Shown: positions 10,824 to 23,706 of the stretch, piece after piece | How positions within the stretch are numbered: position 1 is the stretch's first letter | Layout: the number at the start of each line of letters is the position of its first letter | NCBI GenBank assembly: GCA_016185245.1 | Contig: JACPNZ010000039.1 | Location: forward strand, 1 to 64,000 | Direction of reading: 5' to 3' | From: Hyphomicrobiales bacterium | Lineage (GTDB): Bacteria; Pseudomonadota; Alphaproteobacteria; Rhizobiales; Aestuariivirgaceae | Length of the DNA stretch: 64,000 nt | Made by a program: the position numbers and the translations under genes | The notes under the pieces: generated by a model | Seen by the model: only the letters and a program-made list of their open reading frames with translations | Told to the model about the DNA's origin: nothing | The model's database searches: none

Positions 10824-11597
10824 TCAAGCTGGCAGGCGGACCGTCACACCGGCGACGGCCAGCGCCTCGCCAAGCGCACCTTCCGGAGTGGCGTCGGAGA
10901 CCAGCGTCATGGCCGCGGTCCAGGGCCCGTAGACGGCAAGCGACGGACGATCGAATTTGGAATGGTCGGCGAGAACGATCGTCCGGGCGGCGCGGCGCAT
11001 CATCGCCCCATAGATGAGGCCCGGGCCGACGCCGGCATCGTTGGGCCCTTCGGCAGTAACTCCGCTCGCCCCCAGGATCGCCTTGCTGGCGCGGAAGCGC
11101 TGCAGGGCGTCGATGGTGTCGGGTCCGTGGATCAGGCCCTCGCGGCCGTCATACTGGCCGGGTAGCATCAGCACCTTGTGCAGCGGATTGCTGGCCAGCG
11201 CCATGGCGATCGAAAAGGCATGGGTGATGACGGTGAGGTGGTTCAATTCGGCGGCAAGCCTGCGAGCAAAATGCAGCGTGGTGGCGCCACCGCCGATCAT
11301 CAGAATGTCGTTGGGCTCGATCAGCGTGACCGCCGTCGCGGCAATCGCCTCGCGCTCGGCAACCATCAGCATCTCGCGCTCGGCGAGAGCCGGCTCGAAG
11401 GCAACGGGCCGCATGGCGCCGCCATAGGTGCGATTGATCAGCCCACGCTCGTCGAGCTCGGCAAGATCGCGGCGCACCGTTTCGGTCGACACCGAAAGCA
11501 ACAGGGCCAGCTCATTCACCCGCAGCGACGGGGCGGCGCGCAGTTCCGCCACGATGCGGGCCTGGCGGTCGGACTTGTTGAGGCGGCTTGGCTTCAT
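10824..11597 (-). CDS. DeoR family transcriptional regulator, divergent from the BMC operon
   Basis: DRQARIVAELRAAPSLRVNELALLLSVSTETVRRDLAELDERGLINRTYGG HTH plus sugar-phosphate sensor domain. Confidence 0.9.
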   Translation of the reverse strand: MKPSRLNKSDRQARIVAELRAAPSLRVNELALLLSVSTETVRRDLAELDERGLINRTYGGAMRPVAFEPALAEREMLMVAEREAIAATAVTLIEPNDILMIGGGATTLHFARRLAAELNHLTVITHAFSIAMALASNPLHKVLMLPGQYDGREGLIHGPDTIDALQRFRASKAILGASGVTAEGPNDAGVGPGLIYGAMMRRAARTIVLADHSKFDRPSLAVYGPWTAAMTLVSDATPEGALGEALAVAGVTVRLPA

Positions 11598-11668
11598 GGA
11601 GCAATCATGCACGGCTTTGACCGGCTTCCAACGGCATTTCTGGACCATGGTCGGAAAATGACCGCTTG

Positions 11669-11686
11669 ACAACAGAATAATGTTGT
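11669..11686. promoter_or_regulatory. Inverted repeat ACAACA-GAATAA-TGTTGT, candidate operator
   Basis: Perfect 6+6 palindrome in the intergenic region between the divergent DeoR gene and the BMC operon. Confidence 0.55.
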
Positions 11687-11740
11687 GATTGCATGATATA
11701 TACTGTGAAGACGGTCATTTCGTGCCTGAAGGACCAACAA

Positions 11741-13024
11741 ATGTACGATTACGGCCTGTTCAAGTTCGAATCGAAGCAGCAGCTTCTCGACACGGCGATC
11801 CGCTACTGGAACCCGGACAAGACCAAGTTCTGGCAGAAGGCCGGCATCGATCTCGTTATCGACCGGCGCGAGGGCTACCGGCTCTACGACATGTCGGGCC
11901 GCAGCCTGATCGACCTGCATTTGAATGGCGGTACCTATAATTTCGGCCACCGGCACCCGGAGCTGGTGGAAACGCTGAAAGGGGCACTCGACTATTTCGA
12001 CATCGGCAACCACTGGTTTCCGTCGGTCGCCCGCGCCGCTCTCGCTGAATCCCTCGTCAAGGTCTCGTCCGGCATGACCTATGCGGTCTTCGCCCCCGGC
12101 GGGGCCGAAGCCGTCGACATCGCCATCAAGAGTGCCCGCTACGCCACCAAGCGGCGCAAGATCGTGTCGATCGTCAAGGGCTACCACGGCCATTCGGGGC
12201 TGTCGGTGGCAACCGGCGACGAGCGCTTCAGCAAGATCTTCCTCTCCGACCAGCCCGAGCATTTCGTCCAGGTGCCGTTCAATGACATCGACGCCATGGA
12301 GAAGGCGCTGAAGGGCAACGACTGCGCCGCGCTCATCATGGAAACGATCCCGGCGACCTATGGCTTTCCCATGCCGAAGCCCGGCTATCTCAACGCCTGC
12401 AAGGCCCTGTGCGTGAAGCACGATGCGATGTACATCGCCGACGAGGTGCAGACGGGGCTCATGCGCACCGGCTCCATGTGGGGCTGGCAGGCCTATGGCG
12501 TCGAGCCCGACATCATGGTGACCGCCAAGGGCCTCTCCGGCGGCCTCTATCCGATCAGTGCTTGTCTGGTGAACGACAAGACCGGCGGCTGGCTCAACGA
12601 GGATGGAGCGGCTCATATCTCGACCTCGGGCGGGGCCGAGCTCGGCTGCGTCGTCGCCCACAAGGTGATCGAGATGCTGCAGCGGCCGGAGCTCATCGCC
12701 AATGTCGGCTTCGTCAGCGAATTCATGGCCGAGGGCATGGCCGAGATGCGGCGGCGCCATGGCGATATTTTCACCGGCGTACGCCAGAAAGGCGTGATCC
12801 TGGGCCTCGAATTCAGTAATCATCCGGAAGGTGCGCTGCATGTCTCGCGGGCGCTTTACGAGCACGGCATCTGGGCCATTTTCTCCTCCCTCGACAAGCG
12901 GGTGCTGCAGTGGAAGCCGGGGGTGCTGCTCTCTTCCGATCTCTGTCAGGAAATCCTCGACCGCTTCGATGCCGCCATGCCGCGGGCCCGCCAACTCTTG
13001 CGCGACGCCGCGAAAGTGAATTGA
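11741..13024 (+). CDS. Class-III PLP aminotransferase / phospho-lyase-like enzyme of the BMC locus
   Basis: Class-III fold: YNFGHRHPELV, FAPGGAEAVDIAIKSARYATKRRKIVSIVKGYHGHSG, IADEVQTGLMRTG, MVTAKGLSGG. Confidence 0.9.
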   Translation: MYDYGLFKFESKQQLLDTAIRYWNPDKTKFWQKAGIDLVIDRREGYRLYDMSGRSLIDLHLNGGTYNFGHRHPELVETLKGALDYFDIGNHWFPSVARAALAESLVKVSSGMTYAVFAPGGAEAVDIAIKSARYATKRRKIVSIVKGYHGHSGLSVATGDERFSKIFLSDQPEHFVQVPFNDIDAMEKALKGNDCAALIMETIPATYGFPMPKPGYLNACKALCVKHDAMYIADEVQTGLMRTGSMWGWQAYGVEPDIMVTAKGLSGGLYPISACLVNDKTGGWLNEDGAAHISTSGGAELGCVVAHKVIEMLQRPELIANVGFVSEFMAEGMAEMRRRHGDIFTGVRQKGVILGLEFSNHPEGALHVSRALYEHGIWAIFSSLDKRVLQWKPGVLLSSDLCQEILDRFDAAMPRARQLLRDAAKVN

Positions 13025-13025
13025 G

Positions 13026-14537
13026 ATGACCGAAGTTCTTATGAAAGTTCCCGACGCACGGCTCGAACAGGGCCGGATGATGCTGGACCGGGCCCGCTGG
13101 GCGGCGGCGAAGCTGGCCAAGATGGACCGCGTGAGCGTCCAGCGAGTGACCGACGCGGTAGCCAAGGCCGGCCACGCCAAGGCCCAGCATTTCGCCGAGT
13201 GCGCCGTGCGCGAGACCGGCATGGGTGTCATCGATCACAAGCGCTTGAAGAACGAAGCCTGTTCCACCGGCATCGCCGATCTCTACGCGCACGAGGATTT
13301 CGTGGCACCCCGCATCGATGTGGGCAAGAAGATCGTCGAACTCCCCCGCCCCGCCGGGGTGATTTTCGCGCTCATCCCCGTCACCAATCCGATCGCCACC
13401 GTGTACTTCAAAACGCTGCTGGCGCTGATGACCCGCAATGCCATCATCCTGAGCCCACACCCGCAGGCCAAGGCCTGCTGTGCGGAAGCGGCGAGGCTTC
13501 TGGCCGAGGCGGCCAAGGCGGCCGGCGCTCCCGATGGCGTGATCCAGGTGATCGCCGAGCCCGATATTCCGCTGATCGAGAAGCTCATGTCGGACGAGCG
13601 CGTCGATCTGATCGTCGCAACCGGCGGGCCTTCGGTGGTCAAGGCCGCCTATCGCTCCGGCAATCCGGCCTTCGGCGTCGGCCCCGGCAATGCGCCGGTG
13701 CTGGTCGACGACACGGCCGACCTCCGGCTGGCGGCGAAGCGCATCGTCGAGTCCAAATCCTTCGACAATTCCATCTTGTGCACCAATGAATCGGTGGTGC
13801 TGGCGTTTTCCACAATCGCTGACCGGCTGCTGGAGGCGATGAAGTCGGCGGGCGCCCACGTCTGCAGCAGCGAAGAGACGGTGAAACTGCGCAACCTCTT
13901 GTTCCCCGAGCATGGCTTCAATATCGGCATGATCGGCAAGGATGCGAACCTCATCGCCCGGGCCGCCGGCTTCAATGCGCCCAACGCGAAAATTCTGGTG
14001 ACGCCGGTCGATCTCGTGCAGCCGGAAGAGAGGCTGGTGCGCGAGAAGCTTTGCCCGGTTCTCGCCTTCGCCCGCGTTCAGAACATCGACCAGGCCATAT
14101 CGGCGGCGCGCTCGATGATGCGCAAGGCCGGCCGCGGCCATTCCGCCGCCGTGCACTCGAAAAACGAAGCCAACATCCTGGCCTTCGCCGCGACCGTCCC
14201 GGCGTTGCGCGTTGCCGTCAATGCCGGCTGCTCGCTCGGAGCTTCCGGTTTCGAGACCAATCTCGGCCCCTCGATGACCATCGGCACGGGCTTTGCCGGA
14301 GGTTCCTCGATCGGCGACAATCTGACGCCGCATCACTTCGTCCACTTTGCCCGCATCGCCTACAACAAGGAGGCCGCCGAAGCCTTCGGCAATTTTGCCG
14401 GCCTCGACCCGCTCGACCTGCCGAAACGCGAGGCAGCACCCCTGAGCCTCGCCGTCGACAATTCATCCGACAGCGAACTTCGCCGTGAACTCCGCCGCAT
14501 CATTCTCGAGGAGCTGAGTGCGGTTCTGGCCGCCTGA
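13026..14537 (+). CDS. BMC-associated, likely CoA-acylating aldehyde dehydrogenase
   Basis: GVGPGNAPVLVDDTADL and FDNSILCTNESVV (catalytic Cys) motifs; amphipathic C-terminal helix ELRRELRRIILEELSAVLAA separated by a linker. Confidence 0.9.
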   Translation: MTEVLMKVPDARLEQGRMMLDRARWAAAKLAKMDRVSVQRVTDAVAKAGHAKAQHFAECAVRETGMGVIDHKRLKNEACSTGIADLYAHEDFVAPRIDVGKKIVELPRPAGVIFALIPVTNPIATVYFKTLLALMTRNAIILSPHPQAKACCAEAARLLAEAAKAAGAPDGVIQVIAEPDIPLIEKLMSDERVDLIVATGGPSVVKAAYRSGNPAFGVGPGNAPVLVDDTADLRLAAKRIVESKSFDNSILCTNESVVLAFSTIADRLLEAMKSAGAHVCSSEETVKLRNLLFPEHGFNIGMIGKDANLIARAAGFNAPNAKILVTPVDLVQPEERLVREKLCPVLAFARVQNIDQAISAARSMMRKAGRGHSAAVHSKNEANILAFAATVPALRVAVNAGCSLGASGFETNLGPSMTIGTGFAGGSSIGDNLTPHHFVHFARIAYNKEAAEAFGNFAGLDPLDLPKREAAPLSLAVDNSSDSELRRELRRIILEELSAVLAA

Positions 14538-14541
14538 CCCC

Positions 14542-15141
14542 ATGGCAACGCTCCGCTCCCTCATCTTCATCGACCAGCTGCAACCGCAGACCATGTGCTA
14601 TCTCGGCACCTGGATCAGGGGATCGCTGCCGCGCACCAACATGGCCGCCGAGATCATCGAGGTGGCCCCCGGCCTCGACATCGAGGCGCTGACCGATGTG
14701 GCGCTCAAGGCCGCCGACGTGCAGGGCGGCATTCTGGTGGTCGAACGCCAGTTCGGCTATCTCGAAATCCATTCGCGCGACGTGGCCGCCGTCAAGGCTG
14801 CCGCCGAGGCCGTCCTCGCCGCCATGGGCATGACGGCCGACCAGGCGATGCGCCCGAAGATCCTCGCTTCCAGGATCGTTACCCGCATCGATCCCGGCCA
14901 CGCTTTCCTCATTAACCGCAACAAGGGCGGCTCAATGATCCTGGCCGGCGAAACCCTGTTCGTGCTCGAAACCGAGCCCGCCGCCTATGCCATTCTCGCC
15001 GCCAACGCGGCCGAGAAGGCGGCGACCATCAAGATCATCGATTATCGCATGATCGGCGCCACCGGCCGGCTTTATCTCTCCGGCACCGAGTCGGAAGTGC
15101 GCGCCGCCGCCGATGCCGCCGAACAGGCCCTGGTGATGTGA
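14542..15141 (+). CDS. BMC-T (tandem BMC domain) shell protein 1
   Basis: Two BMC-like halves (MAAEIIEVAPGLDIEALTDVALKAADVQGGILVVERQFGYLEI ... AYAILAANAAEKAATIKIIDYRMIGATGRLYLSG). Confidence 0.85.
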   Translation: MATLRSLIFIDQLQPQTMCYLGTWIRGSLPRTNMAAEIIEVAPGLDIEALTDVALKAADVQGGILVVERQFGYLEIHSRDVAAVKAAAEAVLAAMGMTADQAMRPKILASRIVTRIDPGHAFLINRNKGGSMILAGETLFVLETEPAAYAILAANAAEKAATIKIIDYRMIGATGRLYLSGTESEVRAAADAAEQALVM

Positions 15142-15531: not shown

Positions 15532-15783
15532 ATGCTCAAGGCAACCGTCACGGGCCGCATCTGGTCCACCAAGAAGATCGCCGAAATGCCCACCGGTTCG
15601 ATCCTCGAGGTCGTGGTCGACGAATCGAATTCGAAGCTTCTCGCCTTCGATCCGCTCGGTTGCGGCCAGGGCGAGAAGGTAATCGTGGCGACGGGTTCGG
15701 TCGCGGCCAGCTGGTTTTCCGGCAAGCCGCCGCCGGTCGATGCCCTGATCATCGGCTCCATCGACGAAACTGCATCGAAATAG
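15532..15783 (+). CDS. BMC-P (EutN/CcmL family) vertex protein
   Basis: [29 protein letters not shown]...[16 protein letters not shown]...[11 protein letters not shown]. Confidence 0.95.
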
Positions 15784-15811: not shown

Positions 15812-16096
15812 ATGTCGAGCAATGCCATCGGAATGATCGAAACCAAGGGCTATGTGGCGGCACTCGCCGCGGCGGACGCCATGGTGAAGGCCGCCAATGT
15901 GACAATCATCGGCCGCGAACAGGTGGGCGACGGCCTCGTCGCCGTGGTGATCAACGGCGATGTCGGCGCGGTCAAGGCCGCAACCGAGGCCGGTGCCGAA
16001 GTGGCGGGCCAGGTGGGAACACTTGTTTCGGTCCATGTGATCCCGCGGCCCCATGCGGATGTCTCCAAGCACTTCACCGCCGGCAGCGCCAAGTAA
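15812..16096 (+). CDS. BMC-H shell protein
   Basis: [61 protein letters not shown]. Confidence 0.97.
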
Positions 16097-16105
16097 GTCT
16101 GCGCC

Positions 16106-16759
16106 ATGGCCGCCGGAAGAATGGCGGCGAAGGGCGAGCTCAGGGTCTATTTGACACTCGAGACCCTGCAGCCGCAATTTGCCGCCTATATGGGAACGCC
16201 GACCCGGGCGCGGGGCTATCCGCCCTATGCCGGTCAGCACGCCCTCATCATCGAGGTCGCTCCCGGCCTGATGATCGAGCGGGTCATCGACCTGGCGCTC
16301 AAGGCCGATCCCGATCTCGAGCCCGGCATCCTGTTCGTCGAGCGTCAGTTCGGCATTCTGGAAATCCATGGTGACAGCAAGGACAAGCTCCTGGCCGCCG
16401 GCCGCGCCGTGCTCGAAGGCCTGGGGCTCGCCGACGGCGAACCGCTGGCACCGCGCATCCTATTCACCGATGTGATCGAGAACATCGCCGACAGCCATGC
16501 CGTCATCATCAACCGCAACCGCCAGGCTTCCATGGTGCTGCCGGGCGAGACGCTGCTGGTCTGCGAGATGGTGCCGGCACTTTATGCGGCAATCGCCGCC
16601 AACGAGGCGGAGAAGGCGGCCCCGGCCCTCACCCTGGTCGATGTGCAGATGATCGGCGCCGCCGGCCGGGTCTACATGTCGGGCAAGACGGCGGATGTCG
16701 AGCGGGGGCTTGCCGAGATGAACCGGGTTCTGGCAGGAATTGGCGGCAGGCAGGGATAG
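16106..16759 (+). CDS. BMC-T shell protein 2
   Basis: Paralog of 14542..15141 (TLETLQPQFAAYMGT, HALIIEVAPGLMIERVIDLALK, LFVERQFGILEIHG, INRNRQASMVLPGETLLVCE). Confidence 0.88.
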   Translation: MAAGRMAAKGELRVYLTLETLQPQFAAYMGTPTRARGYPPYAGQHALIIEVAPGLMIERVIDLALKADPDLEPGILFVERQFGILEIHGDSKDKLLAAGRAVLEGLGLADGEPLAPRILFTDVIENIADSHAVIINRNRQASMVLPGETLLVCEMVPALYAAIAANEAEKAAPALTLVDVQMIGAAGRVYMSGKTADVERGLAEMNRVLAGIGGRQG

Positions 16760-16762
16760 GCC

Positions 16763-17770
16763 ATGGATTTCGACGGGCTCGCGCACCAGGACCAGCTCAA
16801 CATTCTGCTCGAACTGGCGGACGCCTCGCTCGCCCGCTACGACCTGCCGCCCAATTGCGCGGTGGCGATGATCAATCTCTCGGAGAACGCCACCTACAGG
16901 ATCGAGGCGCCGGACGGACGGCGCTGGGCGCTCCGCATCCACCGCGACGGCTATCACTCGAAGACCGCCATCGCCTCGGAGCTCGCCTGGCTTGTCGATC
17001 TGCGCAATACGGGCGTCGTCGTGACGCCGCGGCCGATCAAGGGCAAGGACGGCGAGCTGATCCAGATCGTCGGCCACGCGGCGATGGGGCGGCCCCGCCA
17101 TATCGTTCTCTCCGACTGGGAGACCGGCGTGGAACCCGGCATCGGCGAGGATCTCGAAGGCCCCTTCGAGGTGCTGGGCGAGGTGACGGCGCGCATGCAT
17201 CTCCACACCCGCCAGTGGCAGCGGCCTTCCTGGTTCCAGCGCCACAGCTGGGATTTCGAGACGAGCCTCGGCGAGGACAGGCCCCACTGGGGCCGCTGGC
17301 GCGATGGCATGGGCGTCGACGCCGAAAGGGCGAGGCTCTTCGGCCGCACCGTCGATCTGATCGGCCGGCGGCTTGCTTCCTGTGGCAAGGGCCATGAGCG
17401 CTTCGGCCTCATCCATTGCGACCTCAGGCTCGCCAATCTGCTGATCGACGGCAAGGCGGTGAAGGTCATCGACTTCGACGATTGCGGCTTCGGCTGGTAC
17501 ATGTACGACGCGGCAACACCGGTCTCCTTCTACGAGCACGAGCCCCAGGTACCGGGTCTGATCGAGGCGTGGAAGAAAGGCTATCGCCGGGTGATCGCTT
17601 TGGCGAAGGAAGACGAGGCCGAAATCCCCACCTTCGTCATGCTGCGCCGCTTGCTGCTCGTTGCCTGGATCGGCTCGCACCACGAAACCGACCTCGCCAG
17701 ATCGATGGGCCTTCCGTACACGCAGGGAACCGTGGGCTTGTGCGAAGAGTATCTGCAGAAATTTTCATAA
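16763..17770 (+). CDS. APH/homoserine-kinase-like phosphotransferase, candidate amino-alcohol kinase
   Basis: RFGLIHCDLRLANLLIDGKAVKVIDFDDCGFGWYMYDAA catalytic loop; same operon as the shell genes. Confidence 0.88.
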   Translation: MDFDGLAHQDQLNILLELADASLARYDLPPNCAVAMINLSENATYRIEAPDGRRWALRIHRDGYHSKTAIASELAWLVDLRNTGVVVTPRPIKGKDGELIQIVGHAAMGRPRHIVLSDWETGVEPGIGEDLEGPFEVLGEVTARMHLHTRQWQRPSWFQRHSWDFETSLGEDRPHWGRWRDGMGVDAERARLFGRTVDLIGRRLASCGKGHERFGLIHCDLRLANLLIDGKAVKVIDFDDCGFGWYMYDAATPVSFYEHEPQVPGLIEAWKKGYRRVIALAKEDEAEIPTFVMLRRLLLVAWIGSHHETDLARSMGLPYTQGTVGLCEEYLQKFS

Positions 17771-17846: not shown

Positions 17847-18611
17847 TTACGCCTGAGCCAGCGCTTCCAGACTTTCCGGCAGGATCTGCCCGCCATCGAC
17901 GATGATGGTCTGGCCGGTGACGTAACCTGCCTCCTTCGAGGCAAAGTAGAGTGCGGCGTGGCCGATGTCCTCGACGCTGCCGAGGCGCTTCAAGGGTACC
18001 GAGGCGGCCATGGTGCGTTGGTATTCTTCGCCCATGCCGGCCAAGCCTTCGGTCACGATGTTGCCGGGCATCACCGCATTGACGGTGATGCCGTATTTGG
18101 CGAGCTCGATGCAGGCGGTGCGCATGAAGCCGAGCTGGCCCGCTTTGGTTGCGCCATAGTGGGTCCAGCCCGGATAGCCGGTGATCGGGCCGGTGATCGA
18201 CGAAGTAATGACGATGCGGCCCTGGTCGGATTTCTTCAAATAGGGTAGCGCCGCCTTGACCGAGAGAAAGGTGCCCTTGAGGTTGGTGTCGATGACCTCG
18301 TCCCACTGTTCGCCCGTCATCTCTTCGAGTTTGGCCGGCGGAAAGATGCCGGCGTTGGCGCACAGGACATCGAGGCCGCCATGGTGCCGCGCCGCTTCGG
18401 CCATGGCACCTTCGAGGCTCGACAGATCGGTCACGTCGCCGGCAATCCCGATACCGCCCAGTTCGCGCGCTGCGGCTTCCGCCCGATCGGCATGGCGGGC
18501 GATGATCGCGACCTTCGCTCCCGCCCCGGCAAACACCCGCGCGATGCCCTTGCCGATGCCCTTGGAGCCGCCGGTCACCACGACCGACCGGCCCCGCAAT
18601 GACGATGACAT
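17847..18611 (-). CDS. SDR family oxidoreductase, candidate amino-alcohol dehydrogenase
   Basis: VVVTGGSKGIGKGIARVFAG Rossmann motif; YGATKAGQLGF active site. Confidence 0.92.
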   Translation of the reverse strand: MSSSLRGRSVVVTGGSKGIGKGIARVFAGAGAKVAIIARHADRAEAAARELGGIGIAGDVTDLSSLEGAMAEAARHHGGLDVLCANAGIFPPAKLEEMTGEQWDEVIDTNLKGTFLSVKAALPYLKKSDQGRIVITSSITGPITGYPGWTHYGATKAGQLGFMRTACIELAKYGITVNAVMPGNIVTEGLAGMGEEYQRTMAASVPLKRLGSVEDIGHAALYFASKEAGYVTGQTIIVDGGQILPESLEALAQA

Positions 18612-18677: not shown

Positions 18678-20204
18678 TCAGCCCTCGTTCACCATGTGGC
18701 CGATGTTCCTGTAGGCTTCCGGGTTCATCGACTTGAGCGCGAAGCCCCAGATGAGGCCGACAACTATGATCGCCAGACCCACATAGGGAATACTGTTGGC
18801 GAAGGCGCTGGTGCCGCCGAAGGTCGCAAGGTTGGCGACGAGGAGATAAACCAGCCAGATTTGCGCAACCAAGGAGACGAACGGTGCCACAACCGTCGAG
18901 ATGACGTTGCCGCCGCCCGCCTTGCGGAAGTAGTTCCAGATGGCAACCGACACGATCGCCTGGAGCACCAGCAAGAGCCCGGTGCCGAGAATGGCGAACA
19001 GGGTGTAAATGCCGAGATAGGCCTGGGCGTTGGGATCGCTCCAGCCGTTGAACACGCCATAAAGAACGACCCAGACCGCCGCCAGAACCGACTGCACCAG
19101 CGAAGCCACGTGCGGGCTGCGGAACGTCTTGTGGGTGGCACCCATGGCCGCGGGGATGACGCCCTCGCGGCCCAGCGAATACATGTAGCGCGAGGCCGTG
19201 TTGTGGAAGGCCATGCCGCAGGCGAAGGAGCTGGTGAGGATGAGGACGCTCATCAACTGCATGGCCCAGCCGCCGACGAACTGTTCGATGGGCGCGAGGA
19301 AGAAGTTGCCGGAGTCGCCGACGGCCTTGGCCAGCATGTCGCCTTCGGTTGCATAGGCCGAGACGGCGGCCCAGCTGACCAGCGTGTAGAACACGCCGAG
19401 CCCGATGACCGAGAGATAGAGCGATCTCGGCACGATGCGCTTGGCATCGCGCGATTCCTCGGCGTAGTTGGGCGCCATCTCGAAGCCCACCCACGACCAG
19501 AAGGCCATGAAAATGCCGACGGCGGCGGCACCGGCCGGGATGGCGACATCGCCGACCTTCTGCTCGGCGACCGGCACGGTCACACTAAACACATTGAGCG
19601 CTTCCAGCGAGAAGCTCGTGCCGGTCTTGGCCGTGGCCACCCCGAACCCGAAGATCGCCAGCATCAGAACTTCGAGGACCAGGGCGACGCCAAGAACGGC
19701 GACCGAGAGTTTCACGTCGCGATAGCTGAGCACCGCCGTCAATGCGATCATGAAAATCGCCAGCACGATCCACGGCACATTTATGCCGAGATGCGCGGCG
19801 ATCCAGGAATTGCCGAAATAGGCGAAGAGCCCGGTCAGCGAGGCTTCGAACACGCTATAGCAGGCGAGCGAGGAAATGCCCGCCGACATGCCCACTTCGC
19901 GGCCAAGACCCTGGCTGATGAAGGAGTAGAAACCGCCGACCGTCGAAACCTTCGCGGCCATCGCCGCATAGCCGATCGAGAAGATGGTGAGCACGATGGT
20001 GGCCAGCGCGAAGGCAGCCGGCGTGTGGATGCCGATGCCATAGCCCGCCGCGAAAGGCACGTTGCCGAGCATGGCGGACATCGGCGCCGCACCGGTCACC
20101 GTGAGAAAAAGCACGCCGATCAAGCCGACGGCTCTGGAGTGCAAGAGATCGACGGTCTTTATGCTCGAGACATTGATCGTGGATAAATCACCATGTTGAG
20201 CCAT
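18678..20204 (-). CDS. APC superfamily amino acid/amine permease
   Basis: Multiple TM segments; VGLIGVLFLTVTGAAPMSAMLGN, FYSFISQGLGREVGMSAG, SWVGFEMAPNYAEESRDAKRIVPRSLYLS. Confidence 0.9.
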   Translation of the reverse strand: MAQHGDLSTINVSSIKTVDLLHSRAVGLIGVLFLTVTGAAPMSAMLGNVPFAAGYGIGIHTPAAFALATIVLTIFSIGYAAMAAKVSTVGGFYSFISQGLGREVGMSAGISSLACYSVFEASLTGLFAYFGNSWIAAHLGINVPWIVLAIFMIALTAVLSYRDVKLSVAVLGVALVLEVLMLAIFGFGVATAKTGTSFSLEALNVFSVTVPVAEQKVGDVAIPAGAAAVGIFMAFWSWVGFEMAPNYAEESRDAKRIVPRSLYLSVIGLGVFYTLVSWAAVSAYATEGDMLAKAVGDSGNFFLAPIEQFVGGWAMQLMSVLILTSSFACGMAFHNTASRYMYSLGREGVIPAAMGATHKTFRSPHVASLVQSVLAAVWVVLYGVFNGWSDPNAQAYLGIYTLFAILGTGLLLVLQAIVSVAIWNYFRKAGGGNVISTVVAPFVSLVAQIWLVYLLVANLATFGGTSAFANSIPYVGLAIIVVGLIWGFALKSMNPEAYRNIGHMVNEG

Positions 20205-20291: not shown

Positions 20292-21005
20292 TTATGAACT
20301 AAATTGTTGTTTTGCCAAGCCCATCATGGCAATCAGCTCGGCGCTCGACATGACGTGGCAGTAGATCATGTTGATGATTTCGAGTTCCTTGCGGTGCAAC
20401 TCGTCGGTTGCCGCAGCGCAGCAATCCTCCAAGACGACGACGCCGTAGCTTTCATCGGCGAGACTGCGGACCGTCGAGGAGATGCACTGGTCGGTGAAAA
20501 TCCCACAGCAGATGACGTTGCGGATGCCGAGATTGTGCAGAATGAGCCGGAGGTTGGTGCCGGTCAAAGCCGAGTCGGTGGTCTTGGTCACGGTGATCTC
20601 GTCGCCCACCGGCTGCACGGCATTAACCAATTGCGAGGGCGGATCATCCTTGGGAAGCAATAGGTTATTCCAGCCGGGGAGCTTCTGGGAGAGCGACCGG
20701 TCGCGGCCGTCTTTGGTATGGCAGGCGATGCGGGCGAACAGGCATTCGAGCCCCGCGCCGCGCGCCAACTGCAACATTTTCGCGGTGTTGGGAATGACCG
20801 ACTGGTGCATCCGCTGATGAAAGGGCGTCCACTGATCATAGCGGCGCTGCTCGGCGGGCGTGAGGGTCACCCGGTCGGGCCGCTCCAGGTAGGTGTTCTG
20901 CACATCGATGACGAGCAGTGCGGTCTCCCTGACCGGCAGCACCAGATCATCGGGCTCCGGGGCGCCATCGTAGTAGAGAGAGCGGAATGAAGTCTTCCAC
21001 GACAT
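20292..21005 (-). CDS. Isochorismatase-family cysteine hydrolase
   Basis: ALLVIDVQNTYL; KTTDSAL; CGIFTDQCISSTVRSLADESYGVVVLEDCCAA. Confidence 0.9.
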   Translation of the reverse strand: MSWKTSFRSLYYDGAPEPDDLVLPVRETALLVIDVQNTYLERPDRVTLTPAEQRRYDQWTPFHQRMHQSVIPNTAKMLQLARGAGLECLFARIACHTKDGRDRSLSQKLPGWNNLLLPKDDPPSQLVNAVQPVGDEITVTKTTDSALTGTNLRLILHNLGIRNVICCGIFTDQCISSTVRSLADESYGVVVLEDCCAAATDELHRKELEIINMIYCHVMSSAELIAMMGLAKQQFSS

Positions 21006-21016
21006 GGAGCTGATCC

Positions 21017-21439
21017 TCAGAACCGGAAGATGAAGAGGCCGCGCTCGTCATAGGTGGCGGCGGCCTCCTCGATGAAGGAGGCGATGCGGTTTGCCTTGTA
21101 GGTGTCGCGCATCAGGCGGGCGGCGTCGACGAGCTGCTCCTTGCTCTTGGCCCGGCCGGGACGCAGCAGTTCGTAGACCTGCATCACCACGTCCTGGGGC
21201 ACGTCCACCAGTTCGGCGGCGCGCTCGAAATTGAGGGCGAGTGTCGGGCGGCCAGCGGACCGGGCGATCTCGGCCTGGGCCATCAGCGCCTCAGGCGTGA
21301 TGCGCAGGTCTTCCATCTCGATCTCGCCCGCCAGCACCGCAGCAAGCGTGATATCGGCGAGAGTTAGCCCACGTTTGCCCTTCACTTCGCCGGGCCGGGT
21401 TTCGGCCAGGGGATAATCGGCCCGTGTCAGCCCGCTCAT
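21017..21439 (-). CDS. Diol/glycerol dehydratase small subunit (PduE/DhaB3-like)
   Basis: YPLAETRPGEVKGKRGLTLADITLAAVLAGEIEMEDLRITPEALMAQAEIARSAGRPTLALNFERAAEL. Confidence 0.93.
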   Translation of the reverse strand: MSGLTRADYPLAETRPGEVKGKRGLTLADITLAAVLAGEIEMEDLRITPEALMAQAEIARSAGRPTLALNFERAAELVDVPQDVVMQVYELLRPGRAKSKEQLVDAARLMRDTYKANRIASFIEEAAATYDERGLFIFRF

Positions 21440-23706
21440 GACTTGGCTCCCATAAAAGCGACTTCGATCTCTTCGGGCGCTGCCCCTTCCTCGGTGATCC
21501 CTGTCTCGATGGCATAGATCAGGGCCACCCGGGCATGGTAGCGCGAGCCCATGGCCTCGCCGCGCGTCGGCACCACCACCGGGTCCGGCATTTCGCCCAG
21601 CCCATAGGCCGCCGCATTGGCACCCAGCCCACGATAGTGCTCGATCCTGGTGATCGGCGCGTTGGAAAAGAGTTCGAGATTGTTGTGCGGCAGGCGATCA
21701 CGCTGGTGGATCACCGCCGTGCCCTTGGCCTGCAAGCCAATGCCAACGCCGGAACCCGAAAGCCTCGCCGCCGACAGGCCGAGGAATGACGTATCGGCCG
21801 TATGGCGGAAGCGCACGATGCGGGGCCTGAGGCCACGGGCCGCTATGGCGCCGGTCATCGCCGCCAGCACCTCAGAGAGCCGATGGCCGCCGGTCGTCTG
21901 GAACAGTTTGAGGCCGAAGGCCGGGCTGATGCCGATGACGATCTCCTTTACATCGTTCCCCGGTCCGGCTGGACCGAGGCTTCTATAACGGATGCGCCGC
22001 GCCTCATCCTTCTCATGCAGCGCCTCGGAGCGCAGCACTTCCTTCTGGTCGAGCACGTCGCGGATCGCATTGACTTCCAGGCGGCGAGGCTCCGACATAC
22101 GGTAGCCCGAGCCCGGACCCAGATAGTCGTTAGGATCGTTGACGGCACTTATCACGCGGCCGCCGCGCACCATGGCCGAGGTCTGCAGATAGTCGCCGGA
22201 AAGCCGGAGTTTCACCACGTTGAGCAGGTTCTCCGCCTCCTCGCCAAAGCCGCGCGTCGCCAGCGCCTTGATGACATCGATCACGGTGACGCCGCGGGCC
22301 TTGATCGCCTCGCTGATGAAGGAGACATCTCGGGGGCCGAAGCTGCGGGTCTCGTCGGAGCCGGACGCGACGATGACGCTCGCCTTCATGTCGGCGGTGG
22401 GCCTGGCGAGCCCCAGCTCCTCATAGACCGCAGAAAGTGCCTCCACGGCGCGGCTGCGCAAATCGAGGGCGCGCGACTCAGGCAACGGCGTCAAACCGCC
22501 ATCGGCCTCGAAATCGCGCTGCAAAACCAAATAATCCTCGAGTTCCTCGCCGTTGATCAGCGAGGGATTGAAGGAGTTGTCATAGGCCAGAATCGAGCCC
22601 ATGCCGGAGCAGATCAGGTCGGAGCCGGCCACCAGGAAGGGCCAGATCTTGGCGCCCAGGCGGATTTCGGATTCAGTCGAGCGCGCGTCATTGCCCGAGG
22701 CGCATTCGAGGTCGAGCCACACGGCGATGAGATTTTCCGCCATCAGCTCGCGCACACCTCCCGGCATGGTGGCGGTCAAGGGCGCTCCGTCGATGCCGCC
22801 GTTCTGGGTGCCCTGCACCCCCATGCCGCGCTGCAAGCAGAGGCAGCGGGCCTCGAGATAGAGGAGCGACTTCGACTCATGAAAGCCCATCAAGAGTTCC
22901 GAGCCCGCCCCTGAGGTGCAGCGCATCTTGATGCCGCGCGAGGCATAGGCCGCGGCGAGGAAGGCTTTGGACCAGGGCGTGTCGTCGCCATCGGTGAAAC
23001 TCTTCTCGGTGCCGTAGACCGACACCGTCTCGGCATAGGAGGTAAACCCCGCCATGCCGATCCTGAGTTCCTCGGCCTCCTCGCTCGAACACTGGAACAG
23101 GGTGCCCCAGCGCCCGACCGCTCCCCCAACCGCGCAGGCGACCGCATTGGACCAGGCATTGCGCGAGACCCGCATGGTGGTCTCGATCTCGTCGAAGCCG
23201 AAAGCAACCGCGGTTGCCGCATCGGCGGCCAACTGCAAGGGATCGTCCTTGGCGTTGGTGACGTGGGCCTGGTTGCCCGGCGTCTTCCTTGCCCGCATTT
23301 TGGAATAGGCAAAGGCGATCTCGAGAGCATTGAGGCGGGAAACGACGTCAGCAAGTTTGGCCGGGGTCATGCCATGGGCGAGACGGGTCAGGGTTTCGCG
23401 CGGCACATGCATATCGACCAGCATGCGGGCGACTTCCCTCGAGTCCATCGCCATGGCCTTGGGGGCCATCGCCGGATCGATATGATGGCGGGCGATGAAG
23501 CGATCGATCATGTCGAAGTCGTGTTCGAGGACGCCGTCCATGCTGGCCACCCGGCCGCCGGCGATGGCGATTGCCGATTTCGGATCGGCCGGGCTCGAAA
23601 AGGCGGAAAAGCCATTGGCGGCATCCTCGGCGGCGAACTTGTCGAGCCGCAGCGGGCGCTCGTCCCAGTCGGCATAGCGCTTCCAGCGGTTCGGCGTGTC
23701 GTTCAT
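21436..23706 (-). CDS. B12-type diol dehydratase, fused large and medium subunits (PduC-PduD-like)
   Basis: RARKTPGNQAHVTNAKDDPLQLAADAATAVAFGFDEIETT, SYAETVSVYGTEKSFTDGDDTPWSKAFLAAAYASRG, LDLECASGND, then a medium-subunit-like domain (EIVIGISPAFGLKLFQTTGGHRLSEVLAAM...GIGLQAKGTAVIHQRDRLPHNNLELFSNAP). Confidence 0.95.
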   Translation of the reverse strand: MNDTPNRWKRYADWDERPLRLDKFAAEDAANGFSAFSSPADPKSAIAIAGGRVASMDGVLEHDFDMIDRFIARHHIDPAMAPKAMAMDSREVARMLVDMHVPRETLTRLAHGMTPAKLADVVSRLNALEIAFAYSKMRARKTPGNQAHVTNAKDDPLQLAADAATAVAFGFDEIETTMRVSRNAWSNAVACAVGGAVGRWGTLFQCSSEEAEELRIGMAGFTSYAETVSVYGTEKSFTDGDDTPWSKAFLAAAYASRGIKMRCTSGAGSELLMGFHESKSLLYLEARCLCLQRGMGVQGTQNGGIDGAPLTATMPGGVRELMAENLIAVWLDLECASGNDARSTESEIRLGAKIWPFLVAGSDLICSGMGSILAYDNSFNPSLINGEELEDYLVLQRDFEADGGLTPLPESRALDLRSRAVEALSAVYEELGLARPTADMKASVIVASGSDETRSFGPRDVSFISEAIKARGVTVIDVIKALATRGFGEEAENLLNVVKLRLSGDYLQTSAMVRGGRVISAVNDPNDYLGPGSGYRMSEPRRLEVNAIRDVLDQKEVLRSEALHEKDEARRIRYRSLGPAGPGNDVKEIVIGISPAFGLKLFQTTGGHRLSEVLAAMTGAIAARGLRPRIVRFRHTADTSFLGLSAARLSGSGVGIGLQAKGTAVIHQRDRLPHNNLELFSNAPITRIEHYRGLGANAAAYGLGEMPDPVVVPTRGEAMGSRYHARVALIYAIETGITEEGAAPEEIEVAFMGAKS

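Follow-up and report, generated by a model that had tools for sequence, protein, structure and literature searches.

The window, a 64,000-nucleotide stretch of DNA from a Hyphomicrobiales bacterium, encodes a fused diol dehydratase which almost certainly belongs to a distinct subfamily, linked to amine loci and carrying a rebuilt substrate pocket. The genes of the locus and the pocket codons are listed in Table 1. Residues are numbered as in the Klebsiella oxytoca diol dehydratase 1dio_A, the alignment reference.

Table 1. Genes of the window locus and altered codons of the dehydratase pocket.
Feature	Position	Strand	Basis
DeoR-family regulator	10824..11672	-	PF00455/PF08220
Class-III PLP enzyme (aminotransferase or phospho-lyase)	11735..13024	+	PF00202
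Acylating aldehyde dehydrogenase (AldDH), C-terminal amphipathic helix (likely encapsulation peptide)	13026..14537	+	CoA-acylating aldehyde dehydrogenase family matches; helix scan
BMC-T shell protein 1	14560..15141	+	PF00936, two stretches
129-aa shell-locus protein, function unassigned, N-terminal amphipathic helix	15142..15531	+	conserved; helix moment
BMC-P (EutN/CcmL) vertex protein	15532..15783	+	PF03319
BMC-H shell protein	15812..16096	+	PF00936, E 3.2e-27
BMC-T shell protein 2	16106..16759	+	49% identity to BMC-T1
APH-family kinase	16763..17770	+	PF01636; closest PDB entry 6ef6, 284 bits vs 69 for the next
SDR	17847..18611	-	6ci8, 6ci9, 3pk0 and 3rih, ~300 bits vs 163 for the next
APC-type amino acid/amine permease	18678..20204	-	PF13520
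Isochorismatase-family cysteine hydrolase (amidase-like)	20292..21005	-	PF00857
Diol dehydratase small subunit (PduE-like)	21017..21439	-	PF02287, E 3.7e-44
Fused diol dehydratase large (PduC-like) and medium (PduD-like) subunit, 756 aa	21436..23706	-	PF02286, E 2.6e-206; PF02288, E 2.3e-20
Arg codon aligned to T337 (missed in the sequence-only reading)	22681..22683	-	R 104, K 1, A 1 among 106
Ala codon aligned to Q336; ORF residue 341	22684..22686	-	alignment to 1dio_A; A/T/S/C in 106/106
Asp codon aligned to S301; ORF residue 306	22789..22791	-	alignment to 1dio_A; invariant in 106/106 subfamily members

The fused dehydratase and its substrate pocket

All three subunit families of AdoCbl diol/glycerol dehydratase were found, and the match to NF011979 exceeds its cut-off. 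The fused gene starts at ATG 23706-23704, with GAGGAG upstream, and its 3′ end is overlapped by the small subunit gene. A Foldseek search with the model of the fused protein returned 1dio_A at 48% identity, together with other diol and glycerol dehydratases. Ethanolamine ammonia-lyase EutBC gave a weak fold match (3abo, TMt 0.60, 14% identity); it is of a different family with different subunits, and the window enzyme is not a member. A cobalamin adenosyltransferase (PF01923) is encoded in the same genome. An Rfam scan of the 64-kb window gave no cobalamin riboswitch and no other RNA. The families, fold, and metal and catalytic residues of the window gene give good support for an AdoCbl-type dehydratase, predicted to use the radical mechanism of diol dehydratase.

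In the sequence-only reading, S301 was replaced by Asp and Q336 by Ala. Alignment to 1dio_A puts both residues there, at codons 22791-22789 and 22686-22684. It also bears out the claimed conservation of Q141, H143, E170, E221, Q296, D335 and S362, and F374 is conserved as well. The pocket change goes further than was noticed at first: SCIG at 301-304 is replaced by DGAP, accompanied by T337R, H340E, S365G and M373S. The AlphaFold model is usable for the fold, and its pLDDT falls below 50 at 303-306 and 339-352, i.e. in the altered loops.

S301 and Q336 had been placed at the C3 side of the substrate, with mutation altering substrate range, in agreement with two published studies (PMC9850924, PMC7674605). 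In diol dehydratase, S301 touches glycerol at its C3 hydroxyl, and the S301A/Q336A double mutation gives a larger pocket with a preference for longer diols and 1,2,4-butanetriol (PMC9850924). In the K. oxytoca enzyme this double mutation raises the Km for 1,2-propanediol 40-fold, from 0.06 to 2.4 mM, lowers kcat/Km from 5.1 to 0.04 (∼100-fold loss) and speeds up inactivation on that substrate (PMC7674605).

Among 398 genomes of the order, the large subunit was detected by Pfam in 33, and 30 loci were retrieved. Of these, 24 carry D301 in a fused gene, 5 are classical unfused enzymes, and 1 (L007) is fused with Ser301. We combined the order-wide loci with a species-genome scan and two further loci to give a clade set of 106 sequences; part of it stems from genomes that two collections share in identical or near-identical form, and 106 therefore does not count independent lineages. 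One homology seed (MGVQGTQN) overlapped the pocket motif. The motif-independent Pfam search agrees with the seeded one, giving the D301 type in 24/24 complete relatives of that kind.

Conservation of the two replacements among relatives, which had been proposed as a check, was found throughout: D301 with a small residue at 336 occurs in 106/106. Since D301 is invariant while pairwise identity falls as low as 64%, chance is excluded. Residue 337 is Arg or Lys in 105/106, the exception being Ala337 in L062. The large subunit has 204 invariant positions across the 106 sequences. In a tree built without the two pocket loops, the D301 clade is monophyletic with support of 100 and a long stem; its members are mostly alphaproteobacterial. 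It is separated from the classical enzymes by 39 fixed differences, with 5 of them in 294-306 against 0.9 expected, and 3 in 330-345 against 1.1.

Three subunit families, fold, and metal and catalytic residues are thus common to the window enzyme and PduCDE/DhaBCE (1dio, 1iwp, 3auj). In contrast to these, the window enzyme has fused alpha and beta subunits, DGAP in place of SCIG at 301-304, A336, R337 and E340, and sits beyond a long separating branch; its genome has no PF08841 reactivase. The S301/Q336 pocket of the characterised PduC/DhaB enzymes is absent here, D301 and A336 standing in its place. This pocket is a specificity trait and does not define the superfamily, yet it separates the clade from the characterised enzymes. 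In the literature searched, we found no published account of the D301/small-336/basic-337 signature.

A second fused type, with Ser301, Ala336 and Leu337, was seen in L007/L131 (G256) on a long branch. It is also without reactivase, and amine-locus genes are absent nearby. The dehydratase of L095, a Halieaceae MAG contig, nests among Roseobacter-type ones, through gene transfer or a binning error.

Linkage to amine loci and shell genes

By its gene content the window locus is of the RMM/AAUM type, with a predicted aminopropanol-type SDR and kinase, a class-III PLP enzyme and an acylating AldDH. We take 6ef6, the closest structure to the kinase, to be the 1-amino-2-propanol kinase of M. smegmatis. 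The SDR matches 6ci8 and 6ci9 are presumably the 1-amino-2-propanol dehydrogenase of the M. smegmatis RMM. PMC8007038 cites the titles of the papers on these structures. The amine-type locus suggested earlier is therefore upheld by these neighbours and by amine transporters. The 129-aa protein gave no match in Pfam or NCBIfam; a hypothetical protein is placed like it in R. jostii RHA1 (L145 11002-11439).

We then counted neighbours in the 43 dehydratase loci with full flanks. The small subunit is retained in 43/43. The SDR, the kinase or the class-III PLP enzyme, alone or together, accompany it in 41/43, and an APC or polyamine-type ABC transporter is present in 39/43. The ABC transporter, whose components match NCBIfam polyamine transporter families with scores below the curated cut-offs, takes the place of the APC permease in other dehydratase loci. 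Within 10 kb of the dehydratase, the cysteine hydrolase is found in 32/43 loci and shell genes in 14/43.

Across the order, the kinase occurs in 23/24 D301 genomes and in 89/374 others. RMM-type shells, called by BMC-T1 at ≥67% identity, were found in 20 genomes. The fused dehydratase is present in 17/20 of these and in 10/378 shell-less genomes, where the 27 fused-type genomes include three with fragments only and residue 301 unread. Both comparisons count related species as independent, so that P values overstate the case; the direction is clear.

The dehydratase also occurs in Mesorhizobium and Shinella with no shell genes nearby, and no acylating AldDH was found near it in these loci. In Shinella it lies within a cluster of Ugp-like ABC transporter, SDR, kinase and class-III PLP genes. 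Conversely, the pAt plasmid of A. fabrum C58 (L147 8998-18431) carries the kinase, class-III PLP enzyme, SDR, PotD-type (polyamine-type) ABC transporter, cysteine hydrolase and DeoR regulator, and both dehydratase and shell are absent from the stretch read. The amine pathway therefore does not need the dehydratase. The RMM1 locus of R. jostii RHA1 is a shell version of the core, again with no dehydratase. Since the core occurs without the dehydratase and the dehydratase without the shell, the dehydratase is an optional branch. Its neighbours suggest what kind of substrate it uses and fall short of proof.

Two ideas were discarded. The cysteine hydrolase is not a marker of the dehydratase step, as it also accompanies the core without the dehydratase. 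Nor is the dehydratase the obligatory first enzyme of the compartment, given the shell-less D301 loci in Mesorhizobium and Shinella.

The closest published arrangement is in the RMM2 loci of Mycobacterium, where diol dehydratase genes lie on the strand opposite the RMM-type shell and enzyme genes (Axen 2014, PMC4207490). The window locus has the same layout; it differs in being alphaproteobacterial and in having a DeoR-type regulator rather than GntR. The 2014 study left the role of the RMM2 dehydratase open, either as unused by the compartment or as part of a bifunctional one (PMC4207490). Co-occurrence in 17 of the 20 shell genomes speaks against the unused reading and argues for a functional link between dehydratase and RMM-type shell. 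With the pocket signature, the shell link and the missing reactivase, the question becomes testable. Like the AAUM/Aut pathway for aminoacetone and 1-amino-2-propanol (PMC6620236, PMC8007038), the locus has an SDR, APH kinase, class-III PLP enzyme, acylating AldDH and permease; the published proposal, however, has no dehydratase step. Compared with the Pdu microcompartment, it lacks unfused PduCDE and the reactivase.

Subunit fusion, reactivase loss and packaging

The PF08841 reactivase was found in none of the 28 fused-type genomes (27 of the window type, the window's own included, plus that of L007), whereas it is present in 5/5 genomes with an unfused dehydratase. In the proposed mechanism of reactivation, the beta subunit of the dehydratase is exchanged for the reactivase's own (PMC7674605). 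If so, a covalent alpha-beta fusion would block the swap, and we infer that fusion and reactivase loss belong together.

According to a title cited in PMC6787980, the packaging signal of Pdu is the N-terminus of PduD. The region matching it lies inside the fusion of the window enzyme. Inspection by eye and a moment scan gave no clear encapsulation-peptide-like helix at the fused termini. The C-terminal stretch of the small subunit is amphipathic by scan, but it lies within the conserved domain. The dehydratase is probably cytosolic.

Proposed activity and alternatives

We propose that the dehydratase acts as an optional branch of the RMM/AAUM-type amine-degradation locus. It would carry out the standard radical reaction, from 1,2-diol to aldehyde and water. 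The substrate would be a small diol with a polar, most likely cationic, group on C3. An example would be 3-amino-1,2-propanediol, giving 3-aminopropanal. Asp301 would contact the cationic group on C3, in the space opened by Q336A. The reaction would probably take place in the cytosol, and the aldehyde would then enter the aldehyde and amine metabolism of the locus.

A C3 group different from the usual one is likely, since S301 contacts the C3 hydroxyl and S301A/Q336A costs about 100-fold in kcat/Km. With a pocket altered alike throughout the clade and no reactivase, the enzyme probably uses a substrate other than ordinary propanediol. In an amine locus, a cationic diol is the substrate we favour, at somewhat below an even chance, and an amino-diol is plausible. 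The doubt comes chiefly from basic residue 337. Arg337 (or Lys) and Glu340 co-occur with D301 and could neutralise the Asp charge without a substrate amine, so that an ion pair within the protein, between D301 and residue 337, may take the place of amine binding. The full proposal, in which a clade of B12 dehydratases acts on amino- or cationic diols, Asp301 binds the ammonium, fusion makes the reactivase unnecessary and the enzyme is coupled to alphaproteobacterial RMM-type amine microcompartments, is somewhat less likely again. No account of amino-diol dehydration by the fused family was found in the literature searched.

An ordinary substrate is possible, if somewhat unlikely. 1,2-Propanediol or glycerol would be converted to its aldehyde and join the aminopropanol branch at the step from propanal to propionyl-CoA, and a D301/A336/R337 ion-pair network would stabilise the pocket or curb suicide inactivation without a reactivase. 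The seven unaltered contact residues, the coupling of basic 337 to D301 and the distribution of the reactivase between fused and unfused types are all consistent with this, and both branches would supply propanal to the acylating AldDH. However, the K. oxytoca double mutant has the higher Km for 1,2-propanediol and inactivates faster, not more slowly; neighbouring transporters are predominantly of the amine type; and the Shinella and Mesorhizobium dehydratases have no acylating AldDH close by.

We consider it unlikely that the substrate is a neutral, larger or more polar 1,2-diol (C4 or polyol-like), for which A336 would make room and Asp301 would hydrogen-bond the distal hydroxyl. The widened pocket of S301A/Q336A and its preference for longer diols and 1,2,4-butanetriol point this way, as do the Ugp-like (polyol/sugar) transporter genes beside the Shinella member. 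Yet Asp is charged and bulkier than the Ala of that mutant, and in most loci the transporters are of the amine or polyamine type rather than for polyols.

Binding of a zwitterionic or anionic diol (carboxylate or sulfonate) through R337, with D301 positioning the Arg, would explain why a basic residue is so widely kept at 337; Ala337 in L062 and a locus that indicates amines make it very improbable. That the protein is no longer catalytic, a structural or moonlighting remnant, would suit the missing reactivase and the amine cores without a dehydratase, but the open frame, the 204 invariant positions, the constant small subunit and the cobalamin adenosyltransferase in the genome leave it scarcely credible.

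Should an amino-diol prove to be the substrate, the enzyme would represent a new activity and open a way to products of the 3-aminopropanal type. With propanediol as substrate, the window would instead hold a dehydratase that works naturally with no reactivase; engineering of glycerol dehydratase has resistance to inactivation among its stated aims (PMC7674605).

Further enzyme genes were observed beside some dehydratases. In a Hyphomicrobium-type locus (L058 18505-19929), a nearby ALDH scores above the aminobutyraldehyde dehydrogenase cut-off and would fit 3-aminopropanal oxidation. ALDH genes grouped with it by clustering occur in L033, L036, L050, L051, L056, L057 and L065. In a Roseobacter-type locus (L088 7345-9870), the genes directly upstream of the dehydratase are an iron alcohol dehydrogenase gene and a glutamine-synthetase-like gene, whose best matches include gamma-glutamylputrescine synthetase. 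The gene clusters of L071 and L079 resemble that of L088.
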